DNA of 57,290 bases from Candidatus Binatia bacterium (GTDB lineage Bacteria; Desulfobacterota; Binatia; UBA12015), in assembly GCA_019749875.1 (NCBI GenBank), contig JAIEPK010000087.1, positions 1 to 57,290 of the forward strand, in the 5' to 3' direction. The position numbers and the translations under genes were made by a program. Positions 1,176 to 36,450 of the stretch are shown here, piece by piece. Under the pieces are notes generated by a model. The model did no database searches and was not told where the DNA came from. It was given only the letters and a program-made list of their open reading frames with translations. Positions within the stretch are counted from its first letter, which is position 1. Every line of letters starts with the position of its first letter.

Positions 1176-1868
1176 CTACGCCGGCAGCTCGGCCCAGCGG
1201 CTGTCCAGCCGCCAGTTCCGTCCCTCGACGACGATCGCGCCGAGGTAGTCCGCGGCGGGACGCAGCTCGCGCATCGACCAGCGCGACGTCTCGTGCGGCT
1301 CGTCGCAGCACCATGCGACGGCCGGCGCCGCGGCGCGCCCGAGCGTCACCTCGAAGCGGTCGAGCGGATAGGTGAGGCCATGCCCGCGGGCCTTCAGGTA
1401 GGCCTCCTTCCGCGTCCAGCACGCGAAGAAGGTCTCGCGCCGGTCGGCGTCCGATGCGCCCAGCACCGCCGCACGCTCGCCCGGTGCGAAGAACCGGCAC
1501 GCGATCGCGTCGACGTCGACCGGGCGGCGCATCCACTCGATGTCGACGCCGACCTGGCGGCCGGTCGCGACCGCGACCACGACGAGCTCGTGCGCGTGCG
1601 ACACGTTGAAGGCCAGGGGAGGTACCGCATCCACCGCTGCGAGCAGCGGCTTGCCGTGCGGGCCCTCGCCGAAGCAGAAGCCGTCCGGGGAGCGGTCGAG
1701 GGCTTGGCCGAGCACGCGGCGCAGCAGGCCGCGCCCGGCAACGAAACGCGTGCGGTCGCGCGCGAAGTGGAAGCGGTCGGCGCGGGCACGCTCGTCGGGC
1801 GACAGGAGCGCGCGCAGCGCTTGCTCGTGCGCGGCACAGCGTGCGAGCGATGCGTGCCACAGGTGCAC
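1176..1868 (-). CDS. Sfp/Gsp-type 4'-phosphopantetheinyl transferase
   Basis: A protein of 230 residues, the usual size of Sfp-like enzymes that load CoA-derived phosphopantetheine onto carrier-protein serines. All family motifs are visible: FNVSHAHE (about 87-94), VGVDIE (106-111, Mg-binding Asp109 and Glu111) and WTRKEAYLKA (151-160, Glu155). The chosen start is GTG at 1868. The frame stays open upstream, and a CTG at 1913 would overlap the stop of the ABC ATPase gene, so a slightly longer N-terminus is possible. It is the last gene of a minus-strand operon (permease, ATPase, this gene) and faces the PKS/ACP gene tail to tail with 9 bp between stops. Its obvious client is that ACP. Confidence 0.93.
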   Translation of the reverse strand: MHLWHASLARCAAHEQALRALLSPDERARADRFHFARDRTRFVAGRGLLRRVLGQALDRSPDGFCFGEGPHGKPLLAAVDAVPPLAFNVSHAHELVVVAVATGRQVGVDIEWMRRPVDVDAIACRFFAPGERAAVLGASDADRRETFFACWTRKEAYLKARGHGLTYPLDRFEVTLGRAAAPAVAWCCDEPHETSRWSMRELRPAADYLGAIVVEGRNWRLDSRWAELPA

Positions 1869-1909: not shown

Positions 1910-2614
1910 TCAGCTGGCGGCCTCGGCCAGCGTGCGGCCGGTGCGGCGCTCGTTCGCGATCCGTCCGTCCACCAGGGTGATGATGCGATCGCCGTACTCC
2001 GCGGCGGACGCATCGTGGGTCACCATGAGGACGGTCTGCCGCTCGCGCGAGGCGGTCGTGCGCAGCAGCTCGAGGATCTCGTGGCCGGTGCGCGAGTCGA
2101 GGTTTCCCGTCGGCTCGTCTGCCAGCAGCACGGCAGGCTCGATGACGAGAGCGCGCGCGATCGCCACGCGCTGCATCTCGCCGCCCGACATCGCGTCGGG
2201 CGTATGGTGGCGCCGGTCCCAGATCAGGACCTTGCGCAGCGCGCGCTCGACGCGCTCGCGTCGCTCCGACGCGGGCGTTCCGTCGAGCAGCAGCGGCAGG
2301 CCGACGTTCTCCTCGGCGGTCATCGTCGGCAGCAGGTTGAAGAACTGGAAGACCAGCCCCACGCGGCGGCGGCGCAGCAGCGTGAGCTCGTCGTCGGACA
2401 TTTCGGCGAGCGAGCGGCCGCCGACCAGCACCTCGCCCGAGTCCGGGGCATCGAGGCCGCCGACGAGGTGCAGCAAGGTTGACTTGCCGGACCCGCTCGG
2501 CCCGACGATCGACAGGAACTCGCCCGCGGCGATGTCGAGCGTCACGCCGTCGAGGGCGTGCAGGTCCGTGCGCCCGCTGCGATAGGTCTTCACCACGCGG
2601 TCGAGTCGCACCAT
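1910..2614 (-). CDS. ABC transporter ATP-binding subunit (LolD/MacB type)
   Basis: A 234-residue ATPase with a complete nucleotide-binding domain: Walker A GPSGSGKST (38-46), Q-loop VFQFFN (88-93), signature MSGGEMQ (142-148), Walker [12 protein letters not shown] (163-173) and switch His200. This is the LolD/MacB/FtsE class that energises FtsX-type permeases, which usually extrude lipids, lipoproteins or peptides from the outer leaflet of the inner membrane. It starts 4 nt after the stop of the 859-residue permease and is surely translated with it. The phosphopantetheinyl transferase follows, tying the exporter to the neighbouring PKS. Confidence 0.95.
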   Translation of the reverse strand: MVRLDRVVKTYRSGRTDLHALDGVTLDIAAGEFLSIVGPSGSGKSTLLHLVGGLDAPDSGEVLVGGRSLAEMSDDELTLLRRRRVGLVFQFFNLLPTMTAEENVGLPLLLDGTPASERRERVERALRKVLIWDRRHHTPDAMSGGEMQRVAIARALVIEPAVLLADEPTGNLDSRTGHEILELLRTTASRERQTVLMVTHDASAAEYGDRIITLVDGRIANERRTGRTLAEAAS

Positions 2615-2618
2615 CGCA

Positions 2619-5198
2619 CTACTCGTAGGCTAGCGCCGAGCGCACGTTCAGGTTTCCCGCCGCGCGGCCCGGGATCCAGCCGGCGGCTGCCGCCAGCACC
2701 ACCGTCGCGATGCCGCCGACCAGCATGGCGCCGAGCGGATAGCGGTGCGTGAACGACATGCCGAAGAGCTCGGGGATCTCGCCCACCCAGACGTAGCCCA
2801 CGAGCGCGCCGGTCAGCACGCCGGCGACGCCGCCGACGGCGCCGATCAGGGCGGCCTCGACCATGAACGACAGAGCGAGCTGGCGGCGCGTGGCGCCGAT
2901 GGCGCGCAGGATGCCCATCTGACGTACTCCTTCCAGGACGGCTGCGAGCAGCGCGTTGACGAGGCCGAGGAGCGCGATCGCGATGACGATCAGGATCACC
3001 GGGTAGATGGCGAACAGCGCCTGGGCGGCGATGCGCTCGTACTCGCGCACCAGAGTCGCGACCGGCACGACGAACAGCCCGTACGACTCGCCCCAGCGGG
3101 AGCGGATGGTGTTCATCACGGCGTCGCGCGACGCCCCGGTGGCGATGCTCAGCTCGATGAACGTCACCTTGTCGTCGCGCCAGAGCCGCCGGTACGCGGC
3201 GCGATCGACGTAGATCGCGCCGAGGTCGGTCAGATCGGAGTGCACCGCGACGATCTCCAGCGCGACCGGGCCGCTCGGGGTCGGGAGCTCCAGAACGTCG
3301 CCGCGCCCCTTGTGGAAGCGCCGCGCGAAGACCTCGCTCACGATCGCGCCGCGGCCAGCCTCGAGAGCGTCGAGCGCCGCGTCGCGGTCGCCGTCGACCA
3401 GGTTGAGGCCGCGGTATCCCACGCGATAGACGCGTGTGTCGCGCGCGACGACGTACGTCAGGAGCCCGCCGTAGGGAACCTTCACCCAGCGCGACGGGTC
3501 GACGTTTTGCACCTCCGGCAGCGCGGCGATGAGGTCGACGAGGCTGTCCGGGAGCGGCTTGGCGGATGCCGGTCCGACCTGGGTCCCAGAGCTCACGCCG
3601 ACGTCGGTGCGGCCGAACTCGGCGGCGAGGACGCGGCGGAACGTCGCCTCGAAGCTGCTTGCCACGGTCGCGACGCCGATCGCTCCGGCGATGCTCACCA
3701 GCAGCGCAGACGAGGTCGTCGAGACGCGCCGGAAATGGCTCAGGACGTTGCGACTCGCGATCGTCGTGACGCCCCCGAGGCGGTCGTCGTGGCGCACGAG
3801 CAAGCGCAGCACGCGGCGCAGCAACGCCGGGGCGCCGAGCGAGACGACGACCAGCAGCCCGAGATCGAGCACCTGGCGCGCCGTCGCGAACGGCCCGTCG
3901 GGACGTCGCGCCTGCAGCAGGCCGGCGGTCGTCCGCGCTGCGAGCAGCGCCAGCGCCGCCAGTGTCAGGCGCGTGGCGATCGGCTTGACGGCGTCGATGG
4001 CGACGGTGTTGCGAAGCGCTTCGATGGGCCGCACGCGGATCGCCTGCCGCGTCGGCACGAGCGCGCCGACCAGCGAGGTGAGCAGCGCGAACGCGACGCC
4101 CCACAGGACCGCTGACGCGGTGAGCGTGACGTCGATCTGCTCGATGGGAAGGAAGCGATCGCTCACGCTCGTGCGGTACGAGCTCCACAGGGTGCGTGCG
4201 AACAGGTTGCCGAGCGGGATGCCGAGAGCGCAGCCCGCCGCCCCCAGCAGGAGCGCTTCCAACATGACGAGCCGGATCACCTCGCGCCCGCGCATCCCGG
4301 TCGAGCGCAGGATGGCGATCTCGCGGCGGCGCTGCGTCACGGCGACCATCATCGCGTTGAACACGATGTAGAGCCCGAGCACGTTCGCGAGTGCCGCGCC
4401 GAGGGTGAAGGCTGACCGGTTGCCGGCGAGCAGGCGCTCGAGCGTCTCGCCACGGCGCTGCGGTCGCTCGACGATGGCGCGTCCGGCGGTGAGGGCCGTG
4501 AGCTCCTGCTGCAGCTCCTCGGTCGACCGGGTCGGCGACTGCGCGACGTCGATCTGCGTGAAGCGCCCGCGCTGCGCGAACAGGCGTTGCGCCGCGAACA
4601 CGTCCATCACCGCGACGCGACCGCCGAACAGCCGGCTCGGACCGGTGCGCCCGTCGATCGTGGCGCGGATGACCAGCTCCTGCACGCCGCTGCCGCTCTG
4701 CACGCGCATCGTCTGTCCCTCGGACAGCGCGTGCGCCGCCATCAGCTCGCGCGTGAGGGCGATCGAGTTCGCCTTGGCGAGGAAGACCAGCGGATCGTCG
4801 ACGCGCACCGCATCCGGATCGGGCTGGTACTCGCGCACGTCGCGGTCGGCGAGGAGATCGACGCCGAGCAGGTAGACGCGCTCGCCGGGCAGGTCGGGCA
4901 GGGTGACGAAGCCTTGCACCGTCGGTGCGACGGTGCCGATGCCGCGAACGGCCTTGACCTCGTCGACGAGCTCCTCCGGGACACCGGCGTCGCCGTTGGT
5001 GATCTGCAGCGCGGTGGCTCCCGCAACCGCGGCCACCGATTGCTCGAACGACCGTGCGGCGATCTCGTTGACCAGCCGGATCGCGACGATGGCCGACACG
5101 CCGAGGGCGATGCCGAGGACGGTGAGGACCGTGCGTAGCTTGTGGTGTCGGAGATGCCGCAAGCTGATCTGACGGAGCGCCGAGATCATCGCGAACAT
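2619..5198 (-). CDS. FtsX-like ABC transporter permease (two FtsX/MacB-type domains)
   Basis: An 859-residue membrane protein of the DUF214/YbbP-like permease class. An N-terminal TM helix (about 20-42, LRTVLTVLGIALGVSAIVAI) is followed by a large periplasmic domain, then a first FtsX core with three helices (about 270-400). A central TM pair comes next, then a second periplasmic domain and a second FtsX core near the C-terminus (about 735-850). The duplicated layout means one chain can form the whole transmembrane part. The ATG at 5198 has GGGAG eight bases upstream. The gene follows a sigma-54-type promoter at 5451-5465 and heads the operon with the ATPase and PPTase. Substrate inferred: a hydrophobic product of the nearby PKS genes. 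Confidence 0.92.
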   Translation of the reverse strand: MFAMISALRQISLRHLRHHKLRTVLTVLGIALGVSAIVAIRLVNEIAARSFEQSVAAVAGATALQITNGDAGVPEELVDEVKAVRGIGTVAPTVQGFVTLPDLPGERVYLLGVDLLADRDVREYQPDPDAVRVDDPLVFLAKANSIALTRELMAAHALSEGQTMRVQSGSGVQELVIRATIDGRTGPSRLFGGRVAVMDVFAAQRLFAQRGRFTQIDVAQSPTRSTEELQQELTALTAGRAIVERPQRRGETLERLLAGNRSAFTLGAALANVLGLYIVFNAMMVAVTQRRREIAILRSTGMRGREVIRLVMLEALLLGAAGCALGIPLGNLFARTLWSSYRTSVSDRFLPIEQIDVTLTASAVLWGVAFALLTSLVGALVPTRQAIRVRPIEALRNTVAIDAVKPIATRLTLAALALLAARTTAGLLQARRPDGPFATARQVLDLGLLVVVSLGAPALLRRVLRLLVRHDDRLGGVTTIASRNVLSHFRRVSTTSSALLVSIAGAIGVATVASSFEATFRRVLAAEFGRTDVGVSSGTQVGPASAKPLPDSLVDLIAALPEVQNVDPSRWVKVPYGGLLTYVVARDTRVYRVGYRGLNLVDGDRDAALDALEAGRGAIVSEVFARRFHKGRGDVLELPTPSGPVALEIVAVHSDLTDLGAIYVDRAAYRRLWRDDKVTFIELSIATGASRDAVMNTIRSRWGESYGLFVVPVATLVREYERIAAQALFAIYPVILIVIAIALLGLVNALLAAVLEGVRQMGILRAIGATRRQLALSFMVEAALIGAVGGVAGVLTGALVGYVWVGEIPELFGMSFTHRYPLGAMLVGGIATVVLAAAAGWIPGRAAGNLNVRSALAYE

Positions 5199-5450
5199 GT
5201 CAGCGACTCCCGGCTACCACGGTGCTGCGGCCCAACAAAGGTGGCTTCGCGCCGGGCGCTGCGTGCCGCGTTCTCGATCGTCGCGATGCGCGGCGGCCAA
5301 AGCTGACCAGAGCGGCCAGCGATGGCCACCGCAGCACGGTGCCGCGGGACATGCCTCGGCTCGGCGCGGAGCGCGCGATCCGCGGGCATAGGCGGCAGGG
5401 CGGTTTCGCAGCTCGTGAGGACATGGCACGTCGGTCGTGGCCGGCGCCAC

Positions 5451-5465
5451 GCAAGCGACGTTCCA
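5451..5465 (-). promoter_or_regulatory. Sigma-54 (-24/-12) promoter for the permease-ATPase-PPTase operon
   Basis: On the minus strand the sequence reads TGGAACG-TCGC-TTGC. It matches the sigma-54 consensus TGGCACR-N4-TTGC at all but the fourth base and has the exact GG-to-GC spacing. It lies just after the stop of the sigma-54 activator gene (5472) and about 250 nt before the permease start, on the right strand. The adjacent activator makes this a credible functional promoter. The long leader (about 5440 to 5199) has no gene. Confidence 0.6.
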
Positions 5466-5471
5466 GCGCCG

Positions 5472-6434
5472 CTAGCGGAGTCCATGCTGTCGGACCTTGC
5501 GGTACAGCGTGCGCTGCGGCAGGCCGGCCACCGCTGCTTGCTGCGCGACCGAGTCGTGACGGTCGAGGAGCCATCGCAAGTACTCGCGCTCGCGATCGCG
5601 GATCCACTCGCGGAGGCCTTCGCCGGAATGGTCCGCGGTGATCGCCGCGGCGTCGGGCAGCTGCAGCAGCGGCGTCTCCTCCTCGGGCAATCGTACGAGC
5701 ACGCCGCGCTCGCAGCCGAGGACGGACGCCCGCCGGAGGAAGTTCAGGAGCTGGCGAACGTTGCCGGGCCAGTCGCGTGTCTGAAGCTCGTGCAGGACGT
5801 CGCTCGCCACCGCGACGACGCCGAGGCTTCGCGCCAGCGCATCGACCGTCAAGAACTGCTCGACGAGCAGCGGGACGTCCTCGAGTCGCTCGCGCAGCGG
5901 TGGCAGGTCGATGCGCAAGACGTTGAGGCGGTAGAAGAAGTCCGAACGCATCTGGCCCGCCGAGACGAGTGTCTCGAGCGGCACGTTGGTTGCGCAGATC
6001 AGGCGCGCGTCCACCGCCACCGGTCGCTGGCTGCCGACGCGAGCGAACTGCCCGGTCTCGACGAAGCGAAGGAGCTTGCCCTGCACCAGCGACGAGATCG
6101 AGTTCGCCTCGTCGAGCACCAGGGTGCCGTTGGCCGCTGCGAGGATCCGCCCGGCATAGGAGCGGTCGGCGCCCGTGAACGATCCCCGCTCGTGACCGAA
6201 GAGCTCCGACTCGACGATGCTCTCGGGCAGCGCGCCGCAGTCGATGACGATCAGCGGTCCCTGCGCACGCGCACTCCGCCGGTGCAGCGCCTGCGCGACG
6301 ACCTCCTTGCCGGTTCCGGTCTCGCCTTGGATCAGCACCGGAGCCTCGAGAGCGGCGAAGCGCTCGATCAAGTCGAGCACGCGCTGCATTCGAGGCGACC
6401 GCGTTCGAATCCCGTGCAGCTCGCGAACGGTCAT
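5472..6434 (-). CDS. Sigma-54-interacting transcriptional activator lacking a sensory domain (AAA+ + Fis HTH)
   Basis: A 320-residue enhancer-binding protein made only of the AAA+ core and a C-terminal DNA-binding helix-turn-helix. Visible are Walker A GETGTGKE (37-44), the sigma-54 contact loop as GSFTGAD (84-90; the usual form is GAFTGA), Walker B TLVLDEA (104-110; the common GTLFLDEIGEL is altered after the Glu), the WPGNVR motif (222-227) and a Fis-like HTH at about 295-316. There is no receiver, GAF or PAS domain, as in PspF or HrpR/S, so activity must be set by expression or a partner protein. The start ATG 6434 has GAGGAAG at good spacing; a longer frame to 6572 exists but has no such site. 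It lies directly upstream of the sigma-54-type promoter of the ABC operon. Confidence 0.93.
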   Translation of the reverse strand: MTVRELHGIRTRSPRMQRVLDLIERFAALEAPVLIQGETGTGKEVVAQALHRRSARAQGPLIVIDCGALPESIVESELFGHERGSFTGADRSYAGRILAAANGTLVLDEANSISSLVQGKLLRFVETGQFARVGSQRPVAVDARLICATNVPLETLVSAGQMRSDFFYRLNVLRIDLPPLRERLEDVPLLVEQFLTVDALARSLGVVAVASDVLHELQTRDWPGNVRQLLNFLRRASVLGCERGVLVRLPEEETPLLQLPDAAAITADHSGEGLREWIRDREREYLRWLLDRHDSVAQQAAVAGLPQRTLYRKVRQHGLR

Positions 6435-6513
6435 GTCGCACTTCCTCTCGTCGAGTCGTGGGTGTGCCGCCGCTGTATCGTACGATGCTGCGTGCGTGGT
6501 CAATCGCAGCAAT

Positions 6514-6550
6514 GATTCCATTACTGCTGCATGGCAGTGAATCTGGAATC
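6514..6550. promoter_or_regulatory. Imperfect inverted repeat in the spacer between activator and barrel genes
   Basis: GATTCCA-TTACTGC (6514-6527) and GCAGTGAATCTGGAATC (6534-6550) form a dyad around TGCATG, with a 3-nt bulge. The stretch is much richer in A/T than its surroundings and lies about 80 bp upstream of the activator start and 150 bp upstream of the barrel start. It is a candidate upstream activating site for the neighbouring sigma-54 activator; binding is not shown. Confidence 0.35.
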
Positions 6551-6700
6551 GTCGCATCGCTCCGTCCGACACGGCGAATCCAGTATCGAGACGAAGCTGT
6601 CATTGACTTCGAGCGGCACGGAGCCCGAAAGAATGCTCGTGCAGCCGCTCGAGAAAACCTCGTCAACGGCTGGCTGGGATCTGTCGGTGCGGAGGACAAT

Positions 6701-8278
6701 GTGCAGGAAGAGCCCGTCGGACACCGAAGCCGCGTGGGGCGTCTTCGTGCGCGGCGAAGCAGGGCTACCCCTGCATGTGCCGCGGCACCGGGTCCTCGCG
6801 TGCGCGCGTGGCTCGGCGGGATCGCGTGCTGGCTGGTGCTGCACGCGGCGCTCGACGTCGGCGTGGCGGCGGCCATCGAGCCGCCGCGCATCTCGGGCAC
6901 CCTCGAGACCTACGGCATCCTGCGCTTCGACTGGCAGAGCCCGCGGCAGCGGCCGCTCGGACGCGTCGATCTCGCCATCGAGCAGAAGATCGCGGATCGT
7001 ACTCGCGTCAAGCTGTCCGCGATCGGCTCGTGGGGAGGAACGATCGAGAACTCGAGCGGTGCTGGGCTGATCGACTTCGGACATGCCTTCCAGAATCCCG
7101 ATCCGTCTCTGCAGCTCGGCCAAGCCTACGTCGATCACAGCACGGACACCATCGACGTTCGGGTCGGAACGCAGGTCTTCACCTGGGGCAGGCTCGACGG
7201 CAGCCGCCCGAACGACCAGCTCAATCCCAGAATCTATCTGGACCCGTTCCTGACCGACGAGGTCGCCGCCAAAGTCCCGGTGCCGGCGGTCAGCGTGGCG
7301 TACGCGCCCGAGGGGGCGTGGACGGAGGCTCTCCCCGAGGAGTCGCGCCTGACGTTCGTCTGGGTGCCGTTCATGGTTCCGTGGCGCTTTCCGCTCGAGG
7401 ACGAGCGCTGGTTCGCACCTGCGGCACGCGTAAATCAAAGTATCAACGTGGGACCTGAGGTGGACACGCGGTGTCCCTGCTCCTTTCTGGTCGACCAGAC
7501 GCTGGGCAACGTGGGCGCACCCGCCCGCACGTTCGACAACGGCAGCTTCGGGATCCGCTACACCGCGCGGTCGTATGGCGTGGATTGGGCGATCACCTAC
7601 TACGACGGCTTCGACTCGACGCCGTCCTTCGATTTGAAGCTGCAGATCGACCCGGTCGTGCGCGACGACGTGCCGGACGTCCTCGAGACAAACCTCGACG
7701 TGCGCCTGCGGCCAGCATTCGAGCGCTACCGGTCGATCGGTGCGGACTTCGAGACGGCGATCGGTGCAGTGACGGTGCGCGGCGAGGGCGCGTTCCGGTT
7801 CCGCCGGCCGTACTCGTTCGACCTGCGCGCGCTGCAAAGTCTGATCGAGCAGAACCAGGCGGCGGTCGATCAGCTCGCGGCGCTCCAGCAGGTGGACGTG
7901 CCGGCTTTCGTCAAACGAGACGCGATCGACTGGGGGCTCGGCGCTGACTACACGACGCACGGTCTGCTGACGCTCCTCGAGCTGCAGCAGCTCGTCCTGC
8001 TGCACAACGACCAGCGGCTCCTCGTGCGCGATGTCGACACGCGCATCGCCCTGGTCCTGCAGAAGAGCTTCCTGGAGGAGCGGTTGCGCGCCCGGGTGAC
8101 CGCGCTCTGGGGGATCGAGAGCGGCTACGAGCTGGTGCGCGGCGAGCTGACGTACGACTTCAGCGACCACGTCAGCGGGCGCGTCGGGATCCTGGGCATC
8201 TGGGGAAGCGCGAATTCGCTGATCGGCCAGTACGAGGCGAACAGCGAGGCGTACGCGGCGATGCGCTACTCGTTCTGA
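6701..8278 (+). CDS. Outer-membrane beta-barrel protein, DUF1302/alginate-export-like
   Basis: The predicted mature protein is rich in alternating beta strands and ends in AAMRYSF, the terminal aromatic residue of outer-membrane barrels. The segment VGTQVFTWGRLDGSRPNDQLNP resembles the GRQ..WG....NP motif of DUF1302 barrels. A hydrophobic signal (WLGGIACWLVLHAAL) ends near VAA-AIEPP. The GTG at 6701 is preferred because GGAGG lies five bases before it, though it gives a long Arg-rich n-region; GTG 6800 would give a conventional signal peptide. The gene is convergent with a LolA-like gene, a pairing often seen for DUF1302 barrels. An RND/MMPL partner, commonly present in such sets, is absent here. 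A role in moving a lipid or polyketide to the outer membrane is inferred. Confidence 0.8.
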   Translation: MQEEPVGHRSRVGRLRARRSRATPACAAAPGPRVRAWLGGIACWLVLHAALDVGVAAAIEPPRISGTLETYGILRFDWQSPRQRPLGRVDLAIEQKIADRTRVKLSAIGSWGGTIENSSGAGLIDFGHAFQNPDPSLQLGQAYVDHSTDTIDVRVGTQVFTWGRLDGSRPNDQLNPRIYLDPFLTDEVAAKVPVPAVSVAYAPEGAWTEALPEESRLTFVWVPFMVPWRFPLEDERWFAPAARVNQSINVGPEVDTRCPCSFLVDQTLGNVGAPARTFDNGSFGIRYTARSYGVDWAITYYDGFDSTPSFDLKLQIDPVVRDDVPDVLETNLDVRLRPAFERYRSIGADFETAIGAVTVRGEGAFRFRRPYSFDLRALQSLIEQNQAAVDQLAALQQVDVPAFVKRDAIDWGLGADYTTHGLLTLLELQQLVLLHNDQRLLVRDVDTRIALVLQKSFLEERLRARVTALWGIESGYELVRGELTYDFSDHVSGRVGILGIWGSANSLIGQYEANSEAYAAMRYSF

Positions 8279-8294: not shown

Positions 8295-9173
8295 TCATTG
8301 CACCGTTTCGAGGGCGCGCTCGAGGGTGCGCTTGGTGAACACGTTGGCGTCGATGTTCTGGTTGTAATGCACGTCGGACACGTCGACGACGGTGTAGCCG
8401 CCCGACGGGGTCTTCATCTCCAGGTGGAGCGGGGTCGGGATGCCGTCGATGGTCTCGATCTTGGTGAGCCGCAGGACCTTCTTCGGCTCGCGCTCGTCGG
8501 TGTAGAACTCGATGCCACGCTGCACGTGATCGGGTGTCGACAGCAGGAGGACGAACCGCTTGTAGCCCACGTCCTCCTTGTGCGGCACGAGCTCGATCGA
8601 ATGGACCTGCAGTCCGTCCTGATCGGTCACCGCGAGGACCTTCGCGTCGGCGTCAGCGGCGGTCCAGTCGACGAGCTCCGTCATGAGCTCGAGATCGCGG
8701 TAGCTGAAGTTGCTGCCCATGAAGCTGTCGTCCTTGGAGGCCCCCCCGATCTGCCGGACGCGCTGGCCCTCGGGAAAGTAGATCCACTGCTCGGCGTCGC
8801 GCCCGTCGTGCGTGACCTGCAGGAACGCTGTGCCGCGCACCTCCGGTGGCTCGAGGAACACGGAGAGCGACTTGTCCCCGGAGTCGTGATCCCGCCGCGT
8901 CTTGATGACCATCTCGCGTTTGCGCTCACGGCCGTCGGCGTCGTGGATGACGATGGCCAGCCGCTGGCTCGAGTCGTTCCAGGCACGGGACGTGTCGTTC
9001 AACCGCTTGGCCTCGTCCAGCAGCTCGCGGCCCGACGGCGCCGCGAGCGCCGCCGAGCCGGTGGCGAGCCCGACCAGCATCGTGGCGATGGCGAGTGCGC
9101 CCAGCAGCATTGCTGCTCTGGCGTGAGGCGCGGACGAGCACGAGCCGCGAATGACGGTGACCTCGATGCGCAT
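8295..9173 (-). CDS. Periplasmic LolA-like (outer-membrane lipoprotein-sorting family) protein
   Basis: A protein of about 292 residues with an N-terminal hydrophobic signal (MLLGALAIATMLVGLATGSAALA, about residues 21-43) and a mature beta-rich body. It has the spacing of the LolA-like sorting family: KSLSVFLEPPEVRGTAFLQ, QWIYFPEGQRVRQIGG and DSFMGSNFSYRDLEL. These proteins have a LolA-type hydrophobic cup and usually travel with DUF1302 barrels and RND/MMPL lipid exporters; the mycobacterial polyketide-lipid carrier LppX shares this fold. Start ATG 9173 is favoured over ATG 9197, because it leaves a shorter n-region and is preceded by a G-rich stretch. It is convergent with the barrel gene (16 nt between stops). 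Confidence 0.85.
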   Translation of the reverse strand: MRIEVTVIRGSCSSAPHARAAMLLGALAIATMLVGLATGSAALAAPSGRELLDEAKRLNDTSRAWNDSSQRLAIVIHDADGRERKREMVIKTRRDHDSGDKSLSVFLEPPEVRGTAFLQVTHDGRDAEQWIYFPEGQRVRQIGGASKDDSFMGSNFSYRDLELMTELVDWTAADADAKVLAVTDQDGLQVHSIELVPHKEDVGYKRFVLLLSTPDHVQRGIEFYTDEREPKKVLRLTKIETIDGIPTPLHLEMKTPSGGYTVVDVSDVHYNQNIDANVFTKRTLERALETVQ

Positions 9174-9525
9174 TCTCCAACCCCCGAGCGCGCGCACGCC
9201 GCGCTGTCACGGAATGTGGACGACGGTGTCGCGAACCGCTCGCGTCGGCACGCGCCGACGCGGCGTGACGAAGCTACTCGCTGGGCCGGCGTGCTGTCAA
9301 CCGATGAAATCGCCGACATCGCAGGCAGCCTGCCATCGGAGCATTGCATCCATTCGTCGTCGAGAGTCCGGCGTCGCCGCGGCTCCCTGCGCGCTCGCTG
9401 TGCTGGCGCGGCGGCGACAGGATCGCACCGGCGCCTCTGGCCGTGGCCTCAGGGTGATTCTTGCATTGCGACGATGGACGCCCCGTGATAGCGCGGGGCA
9501 TCCCGACTGACGGACACGGGGTCGA
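9174..9525. other. Divergent spacer between LolA-like and PadR genes; no gene seen
   Basis: About 350 nt without a credible reading frame: the frames here show no family features and no ribosome site. It should hold the two divergent promoters. The only clear element is the near-palindrome at 9480-9499. A TTGCAT hexamer at 9461-9466 is a possible -35 but has no good -10 partner. Confidence 0.5.
9480..9499. promoter_or_regulatory. Near-palindrome just upstream of padR-type gene (candidate autoregulatory operator)
   Basis: GCCCCGTG-ATAG-CGCGGGGC is an 8-bp inverted repeat with one mismatch, ending 26 bp before the start of the PadR-family gene. PadR proteins normally bind dyads in their own promoter, so this is a natural candidate operator. 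In DNA this GC-rich it could also be chance. Confidence 0.35.
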
Positions 9526-13885: not shown

Positions 13886-14601
13886 TCGTCATCGAGCAAG
13901 TCGGCAAGCGCTACGGGCAGGGCGCTGCCGCGGTCGAGGCGCTGCGCGAGGTCACGCTCGCCATCCCGGCCGGACAGTTCGTCTCGGTCATGGGGCCGAG
14001 TGGCTGCGGCAAGAGCACGCTGCTCAACCTCATCGCCGGGCTCGATCAGCCTACACGTGGCCGCGTGCTGATCGACGGACAGGATCTCGCGCAGCTGTCG
14101 AGCGACGAGCGCAGCGACCTGCGGCTGCACCGCATCGGCCTCGTGTTCCAGAGCTTCAACCTCTTTCCGACCTTCACCGTCGAGGAGAACGTCGCGACGC
14201 CGCTGGAGTTCCTCGGCGTCGGCTGGAACGACGCTCGGGAACGCGCGCGGCGGGTCCTGTCGCGCGTCGGCATCCCGACCTCGACACACGGTCGCCGGCC
14301 GTCGGAGCTGTCGGGCGGCGAGCAGCAGCGTACCGCGATTGCGCGCGCTCTGGTGACCGAGCCCGCGATCCTGCTCGCCGACGAGCCGACCGGGAACCTC
14401 GACACGCGGACCGGTCAGAGCGTGCTCGATCTGATCCGCGAGCTGAACCGCACCGAGAAGCTGACCGTCGTCCTTGCGACGCACAGTACCGTGGCGGCGA
14501 CGTACGGCCACCGCACGATCGAGATCTCCGATGGCACGGTGGTCCACGACGTCGAGGCGCCGCCACGCCCGATCCTGCGGCTGGCCGCCGACTACGAGTA
14601 G
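13882..14601 (+). CDS. ABC transporter ATP-binding subunit (LolD/MacB type), PadR operon
   Basis: A 239-residue ATPase with Walker [10 protein letters not shown] (38-46), [11 protein letters not shown]-loop (88-97), signature LSGGEQQ (143-149), Walker [13 protein letters not shown] (163-174) and switch His201. It should energise the permease encoded two genes earlier. GTG 13882 overlaps the type III PKS stop (GTGA). Its stop overlaps that of the convergent carboxylase gene by 10 bp (14592-14601), so there is no room for a separate terminator. Confidence 0.95.
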
Positions 14602-17600
14602 AGCGGCGAGCGCGCCGACGATGGCGCGGCGCGCTCGCCGTCTGCACCGGCGAGCGCCTCCTCGAGTGCACCGATCAGGTACGGGCGCATCTGCGCGGAC
14701 GGGACGACGTCGTGCAGCGAGCCGACCTGCCGCGCCCGCTCTACGGTATGGATGGCCTCGAACTCGGCGGCGACGTCGATCTCGGCGCGCTCGATCGCAC
14801 GCTGCAAGGCTCCCTCGAACACTGCGCGGCCCTCGTTGCCGCCGTGCTGCTCGAGCGCCCTGGCGGCGCTAACGACTTCGGGATCGCGTGCGGCGCGCTG
14901 CCTGGTCTCGCGCGTGAACACGACCTTGGCGGCGGCGCTGCCGCCGATCACCGACGCGTACGAGCCCGCGAGTGCGCCGACGCGCACCCGGTCGCTCAGG
15001 CGACGCGAGAACACGACGTACGCCCCGCCGTGATAGCGCGACACGACGAGGAAGAGCAGCGGGCTCGCGACGTTGACGACCGCACGCGCGATCTCCGCGC
15101 CGTTCTCGAGCTGTAGCGAACGAAGGGACTCCGGCGACCCGTCGAAGCCCGACAAGTTGGCGAGCACCACCACGGGCCGATTGCCGCTGGCCGAGTTGAT
15201 CGCGCGAGCGATCTTGCGCGACGACAGCGAGAACAGCGTACCGCCGGTCCAGCTGCTCGGTCCGTCGACCGGCAGGTCGCCGCTGCGGGCGAGGCTGCGG
15301 CTCTCGATGCCGATCAGACAGACGGCGATGCCGCCGAGCCGCGCATCCCACACGATCGCCGTCTCCGCACCGCGCCAGGTGTGCCAGCGCTCGAGGTTGC
15401 CGCCGTCCTGGTCGACGACGGCCGCCATCACGGCGCGCATCGAGAACGGACGCCGCCGCCCCGGATTCTTCGCGTCGTCGAACAGATCGCCGATCTCTGC
15501 GAAGCCGTCGCTTGAATCCCCGCGGTACGGGAAGCGGGTGACGTCGCGATCGACCGGATCGGTCGTGGCTCTCCGCCGCGGCCAGCGCTCGCCGGGCACC
15601 ACGTAGGTGTACGAGTAGTGTCGCGCGAGGACGTCGAACGCGTCGCGGAGGCTCGCGGCGCAGTACTGCGCCGCGCCGTTGGGCGCGGCGATGCGCTCGA
15701 GGCCGCCGATCGCGACCTCGTCCTCTGCGGCAACCGCGCCGGATGCCTCGAGCGCCGCGCGGCCCGTCAAGACCATGGATCCCGCAGTAGTCATGACGAG
15801 CGCGCCCTTGGTGTGGAGGAGCATCGTCGACAGCGCGTTCCAGTAGCTCTGTGCGCCGACGTTGACCCCGCTCACGATGACGTGCACCACGCCGCCGCCT
15901 TGCGTGAAGCGGATGATCCGGCGCGCGACCGCGGCGGTGGCATCGAGGTTCTCGGTGCCGCTGTCCATCGCGATCCGGGCGCCGCTCGAGATCGGCAGCC
16001 ACTCGACCGGGACGCGTCGCCGCTCGGCGAGATCGATCGCGGCGACGATCCGGCGGCACTCGGGGACGGCGAGGGCGCCCATCGATCGGGCGGGGTCGGA
16101 GATCACCAGGACACGCTCGAGCCCCTCGGGAACCTCCGCGGTCGGAGTGCGCAGCAGCCCGACGACGACCGAGCTCGGATGGCCCCCGGGCGGCCGCTCG
16201 ACGGCGCGCAGCACGTCGCCACGCCGCGCGCGCGGATCGAGCTCCAGCTCTTGAAAGGAGCCGCCGCGTGCCAGCGCGATGGCGTGCGGGTCGAAGACGT
16301 CGCGCTGCCGGGCGGCGGCGACGCGGCGCTCGTGCTCGCCGATCGGGCGCACGCGCGCCCAGGTCGAAGGCCGGAAGTGTGCCTCGATGCCGAGTCCCGC
16401 GGGGTCGCGCGCGACGAGATCGACGCGCGTGCATCGTCCCGTGCGGCGATCGACGGCACGGAGTCGCAGCACCACGCGCTCGATGCCGAGACGTGCGGTG
16501 AGCGGGCCGACCACGCGCACCAGCCGGTCGCACGTCGCCCGATCGAGCTCGATCGCAGGCAGGACGTCGACCGTGATCGTGTTCCACTGCGGCGCCGCGT
16601 CTGCGCCGGTTTCCTCGATTGCGCGGCGCAGCGCGCGCGTCGCACGGTTGAGCGCGAGCTTGAGCGCGGCCAGCGGCTGTCTCGCCGGCGGCTTGGCGGC
16701 CGATCCGCCGTCGGCACGGGCGAAGACCACGATGCGCTGGTCGAACGTCACGGTGCGGTGGCGGGCGCGGTAGCAATGGACCGAGGCGAGCGTCGGTAGC
16801 TTCTCCAGCGTGAAGTCGGCGAGCCGGCGCAGCTCGCGTGTCAGCCAGCGGTCGTCGACGGTGACGAAGCGTTTCGGCCCGACGCGGCGCCGCAACGCCG
16901 GTTCCTCGAAGATCGCCTGCAGGAGCCCGACCGCGGCCTCGGCGACCGCCGATCCGACCGCCGAGCGCAGCTCGCCGAGCGTCGCCAAGGCGCGCCGCAC
17001 CTCGGGATCGCGGCGCAGGAGACGCTGCGCGCACGGCAGGCGGATCAGCCGTCGGAGCAGGGCCGCGACGAGCCGCTGCCGGCTGTCGCGCTCGTGCCGC
17101 GTGGACAGCAGGCGCAGCAGCGCGCGCTCGAGCTGCGCTCCCGGCGCGAGATCCGCGGCGTCGTCGTGCCGCAGGGCTGCGCGCAGGAGCGGCAGCAGCG
17201 ATGGATCGTCGGCGCCGCCGTGGCGCAGCGCCGCGATCCAGGCGCGCAAGCGCTCGAACGGCGAAGCCAGGAGAGCGCCGTCGTCCGACCAACCCGGCTC
17301 GCGTGACAATGCTCGCTCCTGGTCGGCGAACAAGACGACCAGCGAGCCGAGCGCGGCGTGCTCCCGTGCCGCCGTGGCGGAGCGTCGTCGCGGCTGTGGC
17401 GCGTCGAGCCAGGCGAGCAGCTCGGCGAGGCGGTGGGCATCGCTCGCGAAACCGAGCAGCACGTGGCGCAGCTGGTCGCACTGCCGAAACGTCGCCGACG
17501 GCGCGTCCATCCTGGCGCGCGATTGAGGAGCCGTCGGGCGATTCGCTGCCGCCGCGTCGCCGGCGCCGACCTCGAGCCGCACCACCAGGTCTCCCTTGCG

Positions 17601-19592
17601 CAGCTGCTGCCCGACGCGCACGTCGACGCGAGCAACGACTCCGGCCGTCGGCGCGCGCAACGTCGTCTCCACCTTCATCGCCTCGATCACCACCAGCGCG
17701 TCGCCGCCGCCGACACGCTGGCCGGGCTCGACCTGCACCGCGACGACTCGCGCCGGGAACTCCGCACGCACCTCCCCGTCCGCGGTGCAGAGGAAGCGGT
17801 GAGCCACGTCGTCGATCTCGAGGCGGAGGGTGGTCTCGCTGAGGTCGAACAGCAGGCGCTGCGAGCCACGGTCATCGACGAGCCGTCCCACGTGCGCGTC
17901 GCAGCGCTCCCAGCGTACGATCGTCGCGGTCGCGCCGAGCTCGACGCGGTACTGGCCGGGGCCCACGTTGGCGACCTCGGCACGGTGCGACTGCCCGCGG
18001 TACACCAGCTCGACGGGCTCGGCAATCGCGCGCGGGATACCGCTCGCGGCGAAGCGCCCGGTCGCGAAAAACGCCTCGCGCGCGCGTTCGCGCTGCGCGT
18101 CGTGCAGGATCGCACAGGCCGCGACGAGCGCGTTGCCGGCGTCGTCTGCCGCGACCGGCGCGCGCGGCGTGCGCTCGAGCCAGCCGGTGTCGACCGCACC
18201 GGCGACCAGCGCCGGCGAGCGTAGCAGCCCGAGCAGGTAGGACTTGTTCGTCGTCCCCCCGGCGACGACGATCTCGCTGCTCTCGAGAACGGCGCACATC
18301 CGGGCGTGCGCCTCGGCGCGCGTGTGGCCGGTAGTGATGATCTTGGCGATCAGCGAGTCGAAGTCTGCGGAGATGGTCGTCCCCACCGCGACGCCGCTGT
18401 CGACGCGCACTCCGGGGCCCTGTGCGGGATCGAAGCGCGCGACACGGCCGGGCGCCGGGACGAAGTCGTCCTCGGGATCCTCGGCGCAGATGCGAACCTC
18501 GAGCGCGGCACCACGCTCGGCGACCGGCAAGGCGCTCAGGTCTTCTCCGCGAGCAACGCGGATCTGCAGCTCGACCAGATCGATCCCCGTCAACGCTTCG
18601 GTGATTCCGTGCTCGACCTGCAGACGCGGGTTCATCTCCAGGAAGTACAGCTCATCGCCGCGGACCAGGAACTCCGCCGTGCCGACACCCGAGTAGCGCG
18701 CGGCGGTCGCGATGCGAACCGCAGCGTCCTCGATGCACGCGCGCTGGTCGGCGGCGAGGTCGGGCGGTGGGGCTTCTTCGACGATCTTCTGGTGGTGACG
18801 CTGCACCGAGCAGTCGCGGCAGCCGAGCGCGCGCACGTTGCCGTGCAGGTCGCCGACGATCTGGACCTCGATGTGCCGTCCGCCGACCACGCAGCGCTCG
18901 AGCAGCACACGGGCGTCACCGCAGGTGAGCTTTGCCTCGCTGCGCGCCGAGCGCAGGCTCGCAGCGAGATCGCCGTAACAGCCGACCTTGCGGATGCCGC
19001 GGCCGCCACCGCCGGCCGCGGCCTTGATCATGATCGGCATGCCGAGCTCGGCGGCGACGCGCCGCGCGCTCGCCGCGTCGCCGATCGCCCTGCCGGACCA
19101 TGGCGTGACGGGAACGCCGACGCTCTTGGCAAGGAGCTTGGCGGCGATCTTGTCGCCGAGCAGCCGCATGGCATCTCCGGTGGGGCCGAGGAAGGTGAAT
19201 CCTTCGCGACGCGCGCGGTCCGCGAAGCGTGGGTCCTCGGAGAGGAAACCCCAACCTGGCCAGATGGTGTCCGCGTCAGCCGCTCGCAGGGCGTCGAAGA
19301 CCGCGTCGTGGTCGAGATACGACGCGACCGGTGTGCTCCGCGCGGCGAGCTGGATCGCGTCGTCGGCCTGGCGCACGAACGGGGCATCGCGATCGGGCGC
19401 CGTGTACAGGGCGATCGCGCGCAGGTCGGATCGGCCATGGTTGCGCAGCACGCGCACCGTGCGCATGCAGCGCAGCGCTGCTTCGCCACGGTTGACGATC
19501 GCGATGCGACGGACGAGCGCCGGCGTCACGTCGGCGCGCGCCGAAGGGGGAAGGGCGCGGATGCCCTGCTGTCCGTGCAAGCCGCTGTGCAT
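14592..19592 (-). CDS. Single-chain acyl-CoA carboxylase: biotin carboxylase - BCCP - central region - carboxyltransferase
   Basis: About 1,666 residues in the order seen in eukaryotic acetyl-CoA carboxylase. Residues about 28-500 are the ATP-grasp biotin carboxylase (IAIVNRGEAALRC, GGGGRGIRKV, EMNPRLQVEHGITEAL near 320). Residues about 600-675 are the biotin carrier, with EAMKVE and the biotinyl Lys at about 640 (codon 17673-17675). A roughly 480-residue middle follows; it contains FTLEKLP..SVHCYRARHR and a segment like the eukaryotic central domain. Two crotonase-like carboxyltransferase halves follow from about 1160 (SSGARIAMDSG; TKGALVMTTAGSMVLTG; ANLSGFDGSPESLRSLQLENGA; YHGGAYVVFSRR). 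The start 19592 has GGAG five bases upstream; ATG 19637 is the longer alternative. It could make malonyl-CoA or a related extender for the PKS enzymes nearby; acyl-CoA preference cannot be read. Confidence 0.9.
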   Translation of the reverse strand: MHSGLHGQQGIRALPPSARADVTPALVRRIAIVNRGEAALRCMRTVRVLRNHGRSDLRAIALYTAPDRDAPFVRQADDAIQLAARSTPVASYLDHDAVFDALRAADADTIWPGWGFLSEDPRFADRARREGFTFLGPTGDAMRLLGDKIAAKLLAKSVGVPVTPWSGRAIGDAASARRVAAELGMPIMIKAAAGGGGRGIRKVGCYGDLAASLRSARSEAKLTCGDARVLLERCVVGGRHIEVQIVGDLHGNVRALGCRDCSVQRHHQKIVEEAPPPDLAADQRACIEDAAVRIATAARYSGVGTAEFLVRGDELYFLEMNPRLQVEHGITEALTGIDLVELQIRVARGEDLSALPVAERGAALEVRICAEDPEDDFVPAPGRVARFDPAQGPGVRVDSGVAVGTTISADFDSLIAKIITTGHTRAEAHARMCAVLESSEIVVAGGTTNKSYLLGLLRSPALVAGAVDTGWLERTPRAPVAADDAGNALVAACAILHDAQRERAREAFFATGRFAASGIPRAIAEPVELVYRGQSHRAEVANVGPGQYRVELGATATIVRWERCDAHVGRLVDDRGSQRLLFDLSETTLRLEIDDVAHRFLCTADGEVRAEFPARVVAVQVEPGQRVGGGDALVVIEAMKVETTLRAPTAGVVARVDVRVGQQLRKGDLVVRLEVGAGDAAAANRPTAPQSRARMDAPSATFRQCDQLRHVLLGFASDAHRLAELLAWLDAPQPRRRSATAAREHAALGSLVVLFADQERALSREPGWSDDGALLASPFERLRAWIAALRHGGADDPSLLPLLRAALRHDDAADLAPGAQLERALLRLLSTRHERDSRQRLVAALLRRLIRLPCAQRLLRRDPEVRRALATLGELRSAVGSAVAEAAVGLLQAIFEEPALRRRVGPKRFVTVDDRWLTRELRRLADFTLEKLPTLASVHCYRARHRTVTFDQRIVVFARADGGSAAKPPARQPLAALKLALNRATRALRRAIEETGADAAPQWNTITVDVLPAIELDRATCDRLVRVVGPLTARLGIERVVLRLRAVDRRTGRCTRVDLVARDPAGLGIEAHFRPSTWARVRPIGEHERRVAAARQRDVFDPHAIALARGGSFQELELDPRARRGDVLRAVERPPGGHPSSVVVGLLRTPTAEVPEGLERVLVISDPARSMGALAVPECRRIVAAIDLAERRRVPVEWLPISSGARIAMDSGTENLDATAAVARRIIRFTQGGGVVHVIVSGVNVGAQSYWNALSTMLLHTKGALVMTTAGSMVLTGRAALEASGAVAAEDEVAIGGLERIAAPNGAAQYCAASLRDAFDVLARHYSYTYVVPGERWPRRRATTDPVDRDVTRFPYRGDSSDGFAEIGDLFDDAKNPGRRRPFSMRAVMAAVVDQDGGNLERWHTWRGAETAIVWDARLGGIAVCLIGIESRSLARSGDLPVDGPSSWTGGTLFSLSSRKIARAINSASGNRPVVVLANLSGFDGSPESLRSLQLENGAEIARAVVNVASPLLFLVVSRYHGGAYVVFSRRLSDRVRVGALAGSYASVIGGSAAAKVVFTRETRQRAARDPEVVSAARALEQHGGNEGRAVFEGALQRAIERAEIDVAAEFEAIHTVERARQVGSLHDVVPSAQMRPYLIGALEEALAGADGERAAPSSARSPLYS

Positions 19593-19687
19593 CGTCGCTC
19601 CGCAGCGCTCGGTAGTCGGCCGAGCGCCGCCCGTCATGCGAGATGCGTGCCGTCACGATCGCTCGCTGCCGCGTGCGGATGCCTTGC

Positions 19688-36044: not shown

Positions 36045-36450
36045 GCTCTGGATTCTCGGTCCGGAGCGCTCGCCGCTCCCGCCGAGCTCTCGACGAGGCG
36101 ACGTCGCGGGGGCCGTGCGCACGTGGCCGCTCGGGCCTGCAGGCTCGTGCAGGGTGATTCGACCGCGCCCGCAATCGATTGCATGGTCGGCCGCCGTGGA
36201 ATTCGCCGAACGGCGTCGGGCAGCGTCACGTTCGCGTCGCTCGTGTCTGGATTGACGAGCGAGCGACGGGGCAGATCACCCGGTCGCGGCGCCGGCCCCG
36301 TATTCTTGACGCACATCGAGGGTGATCTCCCCCCGGATCCGCTGCAAGTGCCCGAGATCCGATGATCACGGCCGTTGGCAGAGGCGTTGCACCGGCCGCA
36401 CGAGGAATGCGCGCGGCCGGTGCCGCCGCCGAAGACGGAGGTCGAATCAG
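36045..36450. other. Gene-free spacer before the TSP3-repeat gene
   Basis: About 400 nt in which I see no supported gene. Two TTGACG hexamers (36252-36257, 36306-36311) could be -35 boxes for the downstream gene, but neither has a convincing -10. Confidence 0.4.

Follow-up and report, generated by a model that had tools for sequence, protein, structure and literature searches.

A candidate sigma-54 promoter between a sensor-less activator gene and an exporter–phosphopantetheinyl transferase operon in a Binatia polyketide locus

Introduction

Some activators of sigma-54-dependent transcription do without a regulatory domain. PspF, HrpR and HrpS are the examples given in an excerpt of PMC7057263. 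Another body of work concerns natural products. In M. xanthus, passages of PMC7910581 state, sigma-54 promoters directly drive natural-product genes, mostly from inside genes. The enhancer half-sites of Nla28 and other activators of this organism often lie within coding sequence and have variable spacers; in Table 1 of PMC9765219, as excerpted, those of Nla28 range from N3 to N54 among adjacent pairs, and longer ones such as N67 are included. Nla28 has a partner kinase, many targets and tandem-repeat sites (passages of PMC7910581 and PMC9765219). In E. coli, aryl polyene clusters combine a LolA-like chaperone with an inner-membrane transporter in a fatty-acid/polyketide-like setting (excerpt of PMC8253772).

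The locus described here lies in a window of 57,290 bases, by which we mean the whole stretch of DNA that was analysed. Like PspF, HrpR and HrpS, its activator has the sigma-54 AAA+ domain and no N-terminal sensor, and all of these proteins carry a C-terminal helix-turn-helix. Solved PspF structures match it by sequence (E about 1e-52) and by fold; the closest solved sequence, however, is ZraR, not PspF. Unlike PspF and HrpRS, the window's activator has GSFTGA instead of GAFTGA and is linked to an exporter/phosphopantetheinyl transferase (PPTase) operon of a polyketide locus. With Nla28 and other M. xanthus activators (passages of PMC7910581 and PMC9765219) it shares a sigma-54 promoter, here a candidate, in a natural-product locus and half-sites, likewise putative, within coding sequence. 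In contrast to Nla28, it is sensor-less, and the putative enhancer, an inverted repeat, lies within the activator's own gene. The likeness to the aryl polyene clusters lies in the LolA-like protein and the transporter, but the transporter here has an ABC-type FtsX/MacB permease in place of the RND type, and the operon has a dedicated PPTase, which the E. coli cluster lacks according to the excerpt of PMC8253772. The papers found on sigma-54 activators and PPTase or polyketide genes do not describe this arrangement in their titles or the beginnings of their abstracts, nor do the passages of PMC7910581. Neither sigma-54 control of natural-product genes nor a sensor-less activator is new in itself; a credible reading of the sequence is that the window case joins the two.

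The activator

The central gene is the following:
5472..6434, minus strand: sensor-less sigma-54 activator (bEBP) of 320 aa, based on Pfam, a fold model and support for its start from G001

G001 is a genome of the same genus, in which the locus is syntenic with 92.3% DNA identity. The Pfam domain Sigma54_activat (PF00158) matches with an E value of 1e-59 from residue 11 of the protein that starts at the ATG at 6434, and the model contains no extra domain; an N-terminal sensor is thus absent. Identity with G001 covers the start codon and the 27 bp before it, and the DNA farther upstream diverges. The domain match and this alignment together bear out the earlier note, which had seen no input domain. 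A longer protein from a GTG at 6572, which would have had room for an N-terminal domain, was rejected because the divergence from G001 upstream of 6434 resembles that of non-coding DNA.

The AAA+ domain is followed by a flexible linker (around residues 250-260) and a C-terminal, Fis-like helix-turn-helix. The Pfam models HTH_50 and HTH_8 match below their cut-off. In the fold model, which has a mean pLDDT of 91.3 and the AAA+ fold, helices 271-292, 296-303 and 307-316 are confident, and as modelled the protein does have the C-terminal helix-turn-helix. The AAA+ part of the model matches solved LuxO, NtrC1, FleQ, ZraR and PspF.

The earlier note had also attached weight to the GSFTGA loop and an altered Walker B context. 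Both are present, and the second is unusual indeed: LVLDE is followed by AN, and a DEAN context was found in none of the 99 activator domains that could be read by pattern out of 137 loci. The position of the glutamate switch, whose role in sigma-54 activators is treated in the excerpt of PMC7057263, holds D in place of N, as in 3 of the 99. GSFTGA, however, is common (12/99), and the catalytic D-E pair is intact, for which reason we do not see in these motifs a special mechanism. The activator of G052, a more distant genome to which we return below, has GAFTGA, DEVN and N at the switch position.

Of course, DEAN and the exchanged switch residue might also betray a degenerate activator with a promoter site that is a mere relic. 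This we regard as very improbable. All 37 invariant columns in an alignment of 40 activators, the window's included, are kept (K43, D108, E109, R163, R169 and R227 among them). Compared with G001, the protein is 98% identical and the three codon positions are identical at 0.978, 0.994 and 0.906, which indicates purifying selection. Judged from these comparisons, the protein shows no sign of being broken.

The divergent region between the activator and the neighbouring DUF1302 gene contains an inverted repeat, GCAGCAATGATTCCATTACTGCTGC (6506-6530), that is unique in the window and was seen in 0 of 100 shuffles. Lying roughly 72-96 bp before the start of the activator gene, it may serve as its operator.

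The operon and its neighbourhood

Behind the activator gene lie three genes on its strand, and on its other side two that recur elsewhere:
2619..5198, minus strand: FtsX/MacB-type ABC permease (perm1), two Pfam FtsX and two MacB_PCD matches
1910..2614, minus strand: ABC ATPase (ABC1), Pfam ABC_tran, 4 bp after perm1
1176..1868, minus strand: Sfp-type 4'-phosphopantetheinyl transferase, ACPS PF01648 E 3.6e-20 and AASDHPPT_N PF22624 E 4.2e-13
6458..8278, plus strand: DUF1302 protein by Pfam, divergent from the activator; also beside the activator in G052
8295..9197, minus strand: LolA-like outer-membrane lipoprotein-sorting protein, Pfam LolA_like E 3e-44; also beside the activator in G052

The PPTase gene starts 41 bp after ABC1. 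With its FtsX/MacB permease and ABC ATPase the exporter is MacB/LolCDE-like; in place of a MacA-type adaptor and an outer-membrane channel, LolA-like and DUF1302 genes are linked to it. The true start of the DUF1302 gene is probably near 6812, the called reading frame being longer. Beyond the LolA-like gene follow PadR, a second FtsX permease, a type III PKS, a second ABC ATPase and a carboxylase; the opposite window edge holds the plus-strand end of a PKS with its ACP, the carrier protein being encoded at 45-1166. The carboxylase (14592-19637, minus strand) is a single reading frame, beside PKS genes, that fuses biotin carboxylase, biotin carrier and carboxyltransferase and is a likely source of extender units. 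The sequence CGGCACGCATCTCGCA (19652-19637, minus strand) ends exactly at the ATG of this 1681-aa biotin carboxylase/carboxyltransferase frame, outside the G001 contig. The divergent region between the LolA-like gene and PadR, 84.5% identical to G001 overall, contains blocks of 34 and 36 bp (9323-9356 and 9482-9517) that are identical there. They are likely regulatory sites, perhaps for PadR.

The exporter also occurs alone. In genome G015 (L203, 5658-11872) DUF1302, PadR, permease (45%), ABC ATPase (66%) and LolA-like (42%) genes adjoin on one strand without this activator, and the permease family is found in 29 and the PPTase in 43 of 145 genomes of the class. The exporter thus exists independently, and by this comparison of sequences the activator looks like an addition in the window's genus. 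A general link between such activators and PPTase or exporter genes was considered and dropped: the activators found near a PPTase in G085 and near a permease in G014 have longer reading frames, of 517 and 501 aa, and at 44% and 42% they are not close relatives of the window's.

The distant orthologue

An activator this close is found in 3 of 148 genomes of the class, namely the window's own, G001 and G052, which means that the comparison rests on two independent loci. The G052 protein is the reciprocal best orthologue (53% identical), and the reverse search returns the same three genomes. Drawing 395 genomes from the phylum yielded one such activator, the window itself, and among the 80 best contig loci listed in a wider search none exceeded 51% segment identity.

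In G052 the activator is again accompanied by LolA-like and DUF1302 genes (29-44% identity). Downstream of it, however, are a FAD-binding oxidase, an Fe-S protein, HMG-CoA reductase and polyprenyl synthase, and a search of the 19 kb extracted at this locus revealed no permease or PPTase of the window's type. On the contig (L143, 4129-9785 and 1627-2586), HMG-CoA reductase, polyprenyl synthase, a FAD-dependent oxidoreductase and a DeoC-family aldolase lie downstream of the activator; this is an isoprenoid-type set.

The candidate promoter

The gap between activator and permease holds the following features:
5465..5451, minus strand: candidate sigma-54 -24/-12 promoter TGGAACG-N4-TTGC, from a motif search; identical in G001
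5199..5450, minus strand: non-coding leader from promoter to permease start, with two length differences from G001, of 4 and 7 bases
5435..5466, minus strand: 32 bp unchanged in G001, the longest such run of the leader, spanning the promoter and the expected start region

The 15-mer TGGAACGTCGCTTGC at 5465..5451 (minus strand) has the exact sigma-54 spacing, GG-N10-GC, in the context TGGCAYR-N4-TTGC, with 10 of 11 consensus positions matched. It begins 6 bp beyond the activator's TAG (5472) and lies 252 bp ahead of the permease ATG (5198), and so is found just where the earlier note had placed it, between activator stop and permease start. The sigma factor is there as well: rpoN, the absence of which would have spoken against the proposal, is encoded in the genome (PF04552, E 2.3e-64, 218 bits). 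Nor did a motif scan of 5150-6900 reveal any sigma-70-type site that could offer the competing explanation. Site scoring showed no prominent sigma-54 site ahead of the activator, DUF1302 or PadR genes.

The significance of the match depends on where one looks. TGGNAYRNNNNTTGC occurs once in the 57,290-base window, but shuffled windows contain it 0.12 times on average and at least once in 10 of 100 cases, so over the whole window it is unremarkable. With up to two mismatches to a looser consensus, 13 sites were counted in the window against 8.94 expected, which is not a clear excess. Within the 273-bp leader and on the correct strand, the best site score was equalled in 1 of 400 simulations, the site-scoring weights of which, as of the spacing and score scan, are our own; a site that matches 10 or more of the 11 positions is expected there 0.0052 times. 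One other sigma-54-like site in the window scores equally high, TGGCAGAGGCGTTGCA at 36376-36391 on the plus strand.

Scanning the genome for further copies gave a divided answer. Of the matches to TGGCACN{2,9}TTGC, 30 of 78 have the correct length of 15 nt, 10 and 13 have the in-phase lengths 12 and 18, and the other five lengths have 2-8 each. Together with rpoN, this excess at the right spacing indicates that the organism uses such promoters. The TGGAAC variant, in contrast, is not enriched at the correct spacing (5/67), and no strict site occurs in the 99 kb that make up 30 further activator loci of this genome (30 of its 38 strong activator matches, the window's own excluded). Both results argue against reading the site from its sequence alone.

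Conservation helps to some extent. The leader is 85.3% identical to that of G001, and the promoter site is fully identical and falls inside the leader's longest identical run. G001 is so close, however, that at the identity of the leader 16 bases would agree by chance in about 8% of cases, and we take the identity as mild support for a promoter. The length differences of 4 and 7 bases show that the leader is not coding, and for this reason a 99-aa reading frame at 5186-5485 was discarded as a gene. A search for known leader RNAs found no Rfam match in the window.

In the distant locus, TGGCATGGTCGGTGC stands immediately behind the G052 activator gene, again with 10 of 11 matches, where 0.0037 such sites are expected in the gap. 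A similar sequence, TGGCATG-N4-GTGCT, is given for M. xanthus pilA in Table 1 of PMC9765219, as excerpted. The start predicted from the G052 site lies only about 7 nt before the assumed ATG, which means that one of the two, the site or the start codon, may be incorrect.

The main target of the activator might of course be DUF1302 and the LolA-like gene, or lie elsewhere; the 5451 site would then be fortuitous or a minor internal promoter, and the operon would be transcribed by read-through or from an unrecognised promoter. The constancy of activator, LolA-like and DUF1302 genes in G052, where the 19 kb stretch has no such permease or PPTase, fits this, as do the common strand of activator and permease with a gap of 273 bp and the lack of enrichment of TGGAAC. 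Yet the divergent region 6435-6811 has no convincing sigma-54 site (best p 0.27 and 0.76), and the best before the LolA-like gene (p 0.045) has the G of its GC beyond the stretch that is unchanged in G001. Of the regions compared, the leader has the strongest site, and in the window as in G052 site and dyad immediately follow the activator gene or fall at its end. On balance we consider this alternative unlikely, though it is the one to be taken most seriously.

The candidate enhancer

Upstream of the promoter a dyad search revealed:
5546..5565, minus strand: candidate enhancer, inverted repeat CGACCG-N8-CGGTCG; identical in G001

Its centre is 90 bp upstream of the promoter site, in the last part of the activator's coding sequence. 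Neither the window nor G001 has another perfect 6-bp dyad with a spacer of 0-12 in the 160 bp ahead of the site. G052 has CGACCG-N2-CGGTCG, with the same half-site, centred 91 bp upstream of its own site; further dyads there are one overlapping this repeat and two at 140.5 bp. The spacers differ, 8 in the window and 2 in G052. The two repeats do not occupy homologous codons; that of G052 lies at the extreme 3' end of its gene. When 200,000 pairs of places were drawn at random, 0.35% had a half-site in common in the 50-150 bp zone and 0.0265% had one in common with centres that agreed within 3 bp, frequencies that are post hoc because the dyad was seen by eye before the null was defined. In the window's own genome the dyad is followed by TGG-N9-TGC at 60-90 bp seven times, the control giving 0; the six other places match the consensus at 7-8 of 11 positions, the window site at 10. 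From its sequence and position we regard the repeat as a candidate enhancer.

How the operon may be controlled

Taken together, the data make it rather probable, in our judgement, that the sensor-less activator drives the permease–ABC–PPTase operon through the promoter at 5465..5451 from an enhancer in its own gene. The activator would bind CGACCG...CGGTCG (5565..5546) in the 3' end of its gene, loop onto RpoN-RNA polymerase at TGGAACG-N4-TTGC (5465..5451) and open this promoter by ATP hydrolysis. A transcript from near 5440 would have a leader of about 240 nt, followed by permease, ABC ATPase and Sfp-type PPTase, and its expression would raise the capacity for export and for ACP priming of the neighbouring polyketide pathway. 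The anatomy of the site, the presence of rpoN, the conservation in G001 and the recurrence in G052 are read directly from the DNA; binding, start site and control by the activator we infer. Since the activator lacks a sensor, its input would be its own amount or a partner protein.

A partner acting in trans, in the manner of PspA on PspF or HrpV on HrpS, and maybe tied to the envelope genes, would couple the envelope or export state to the operon. PspF, HrpR and HrpS, which lack a cis-regulatory domain, are inhibited in trans (excerpt of PMC7057263), and the LolA-like and DUF1302 neighbours are conserved. These two proteins, however, are expected to be extracytoplasmic, which makes direct contact with the activator unlikely, and regulation by a partner would be compatible with control from the 5465..5451 promoter rather than exclusive of it. 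As an explanation in its own right we consider it improbable.

A bolder idea is that of a mobile, self-contained cassette: an activator with its own enhancer in the 3' end and a promoter behind its stop codon would capture any downstream operon. On this view exporter and PPTase would have come under its control here, and in G052 a set of FAD oxidase, Fe-S protein, HMG-CoA reductase and polyprenyl synthase, while the LolA-like and DUF1302 envelope genes would be its constant partners. We give it slightly less credit than an activator aimed mainly at other genes.

The earlier note had gone further and expected sigma-54 control of the PPTase to switch the whole PKS on or off. Here its proposal has to be divided. 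A sigma-54 promoter driving the exporter–PPTase operon agrees with the anatomy of the site, rpoN, the conservation in G001 and the recurrence in G052, as far as sequences can tell; the switch of the whole PKS does not follow. PF01648 matches three loci in the genome: the window PPTase, a 172-aa reading frame, which we take to be of AcpS type from its AcpS-like start IGTGVDLAEIDRIEQAL, and a Sfp-type reading frame of 250 aa. With an AcpS-type and a second Sfp-type enzyme encoded, the formation of holo-PKS need not depend on the window PPTase, and the case for the latter as master switch is weak.

Meaning

If the proposed control is true, an exporter and a carrier-arming enzyme would answer together to one activator, with its own abundance or a partner as sole input. 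Expressing one small gene would then offer a way to awaken a silent polyketide locus. The window locus is, in addition, a compact case for asking whether sensor-less activators keep their enhancer in their own coding sequence.
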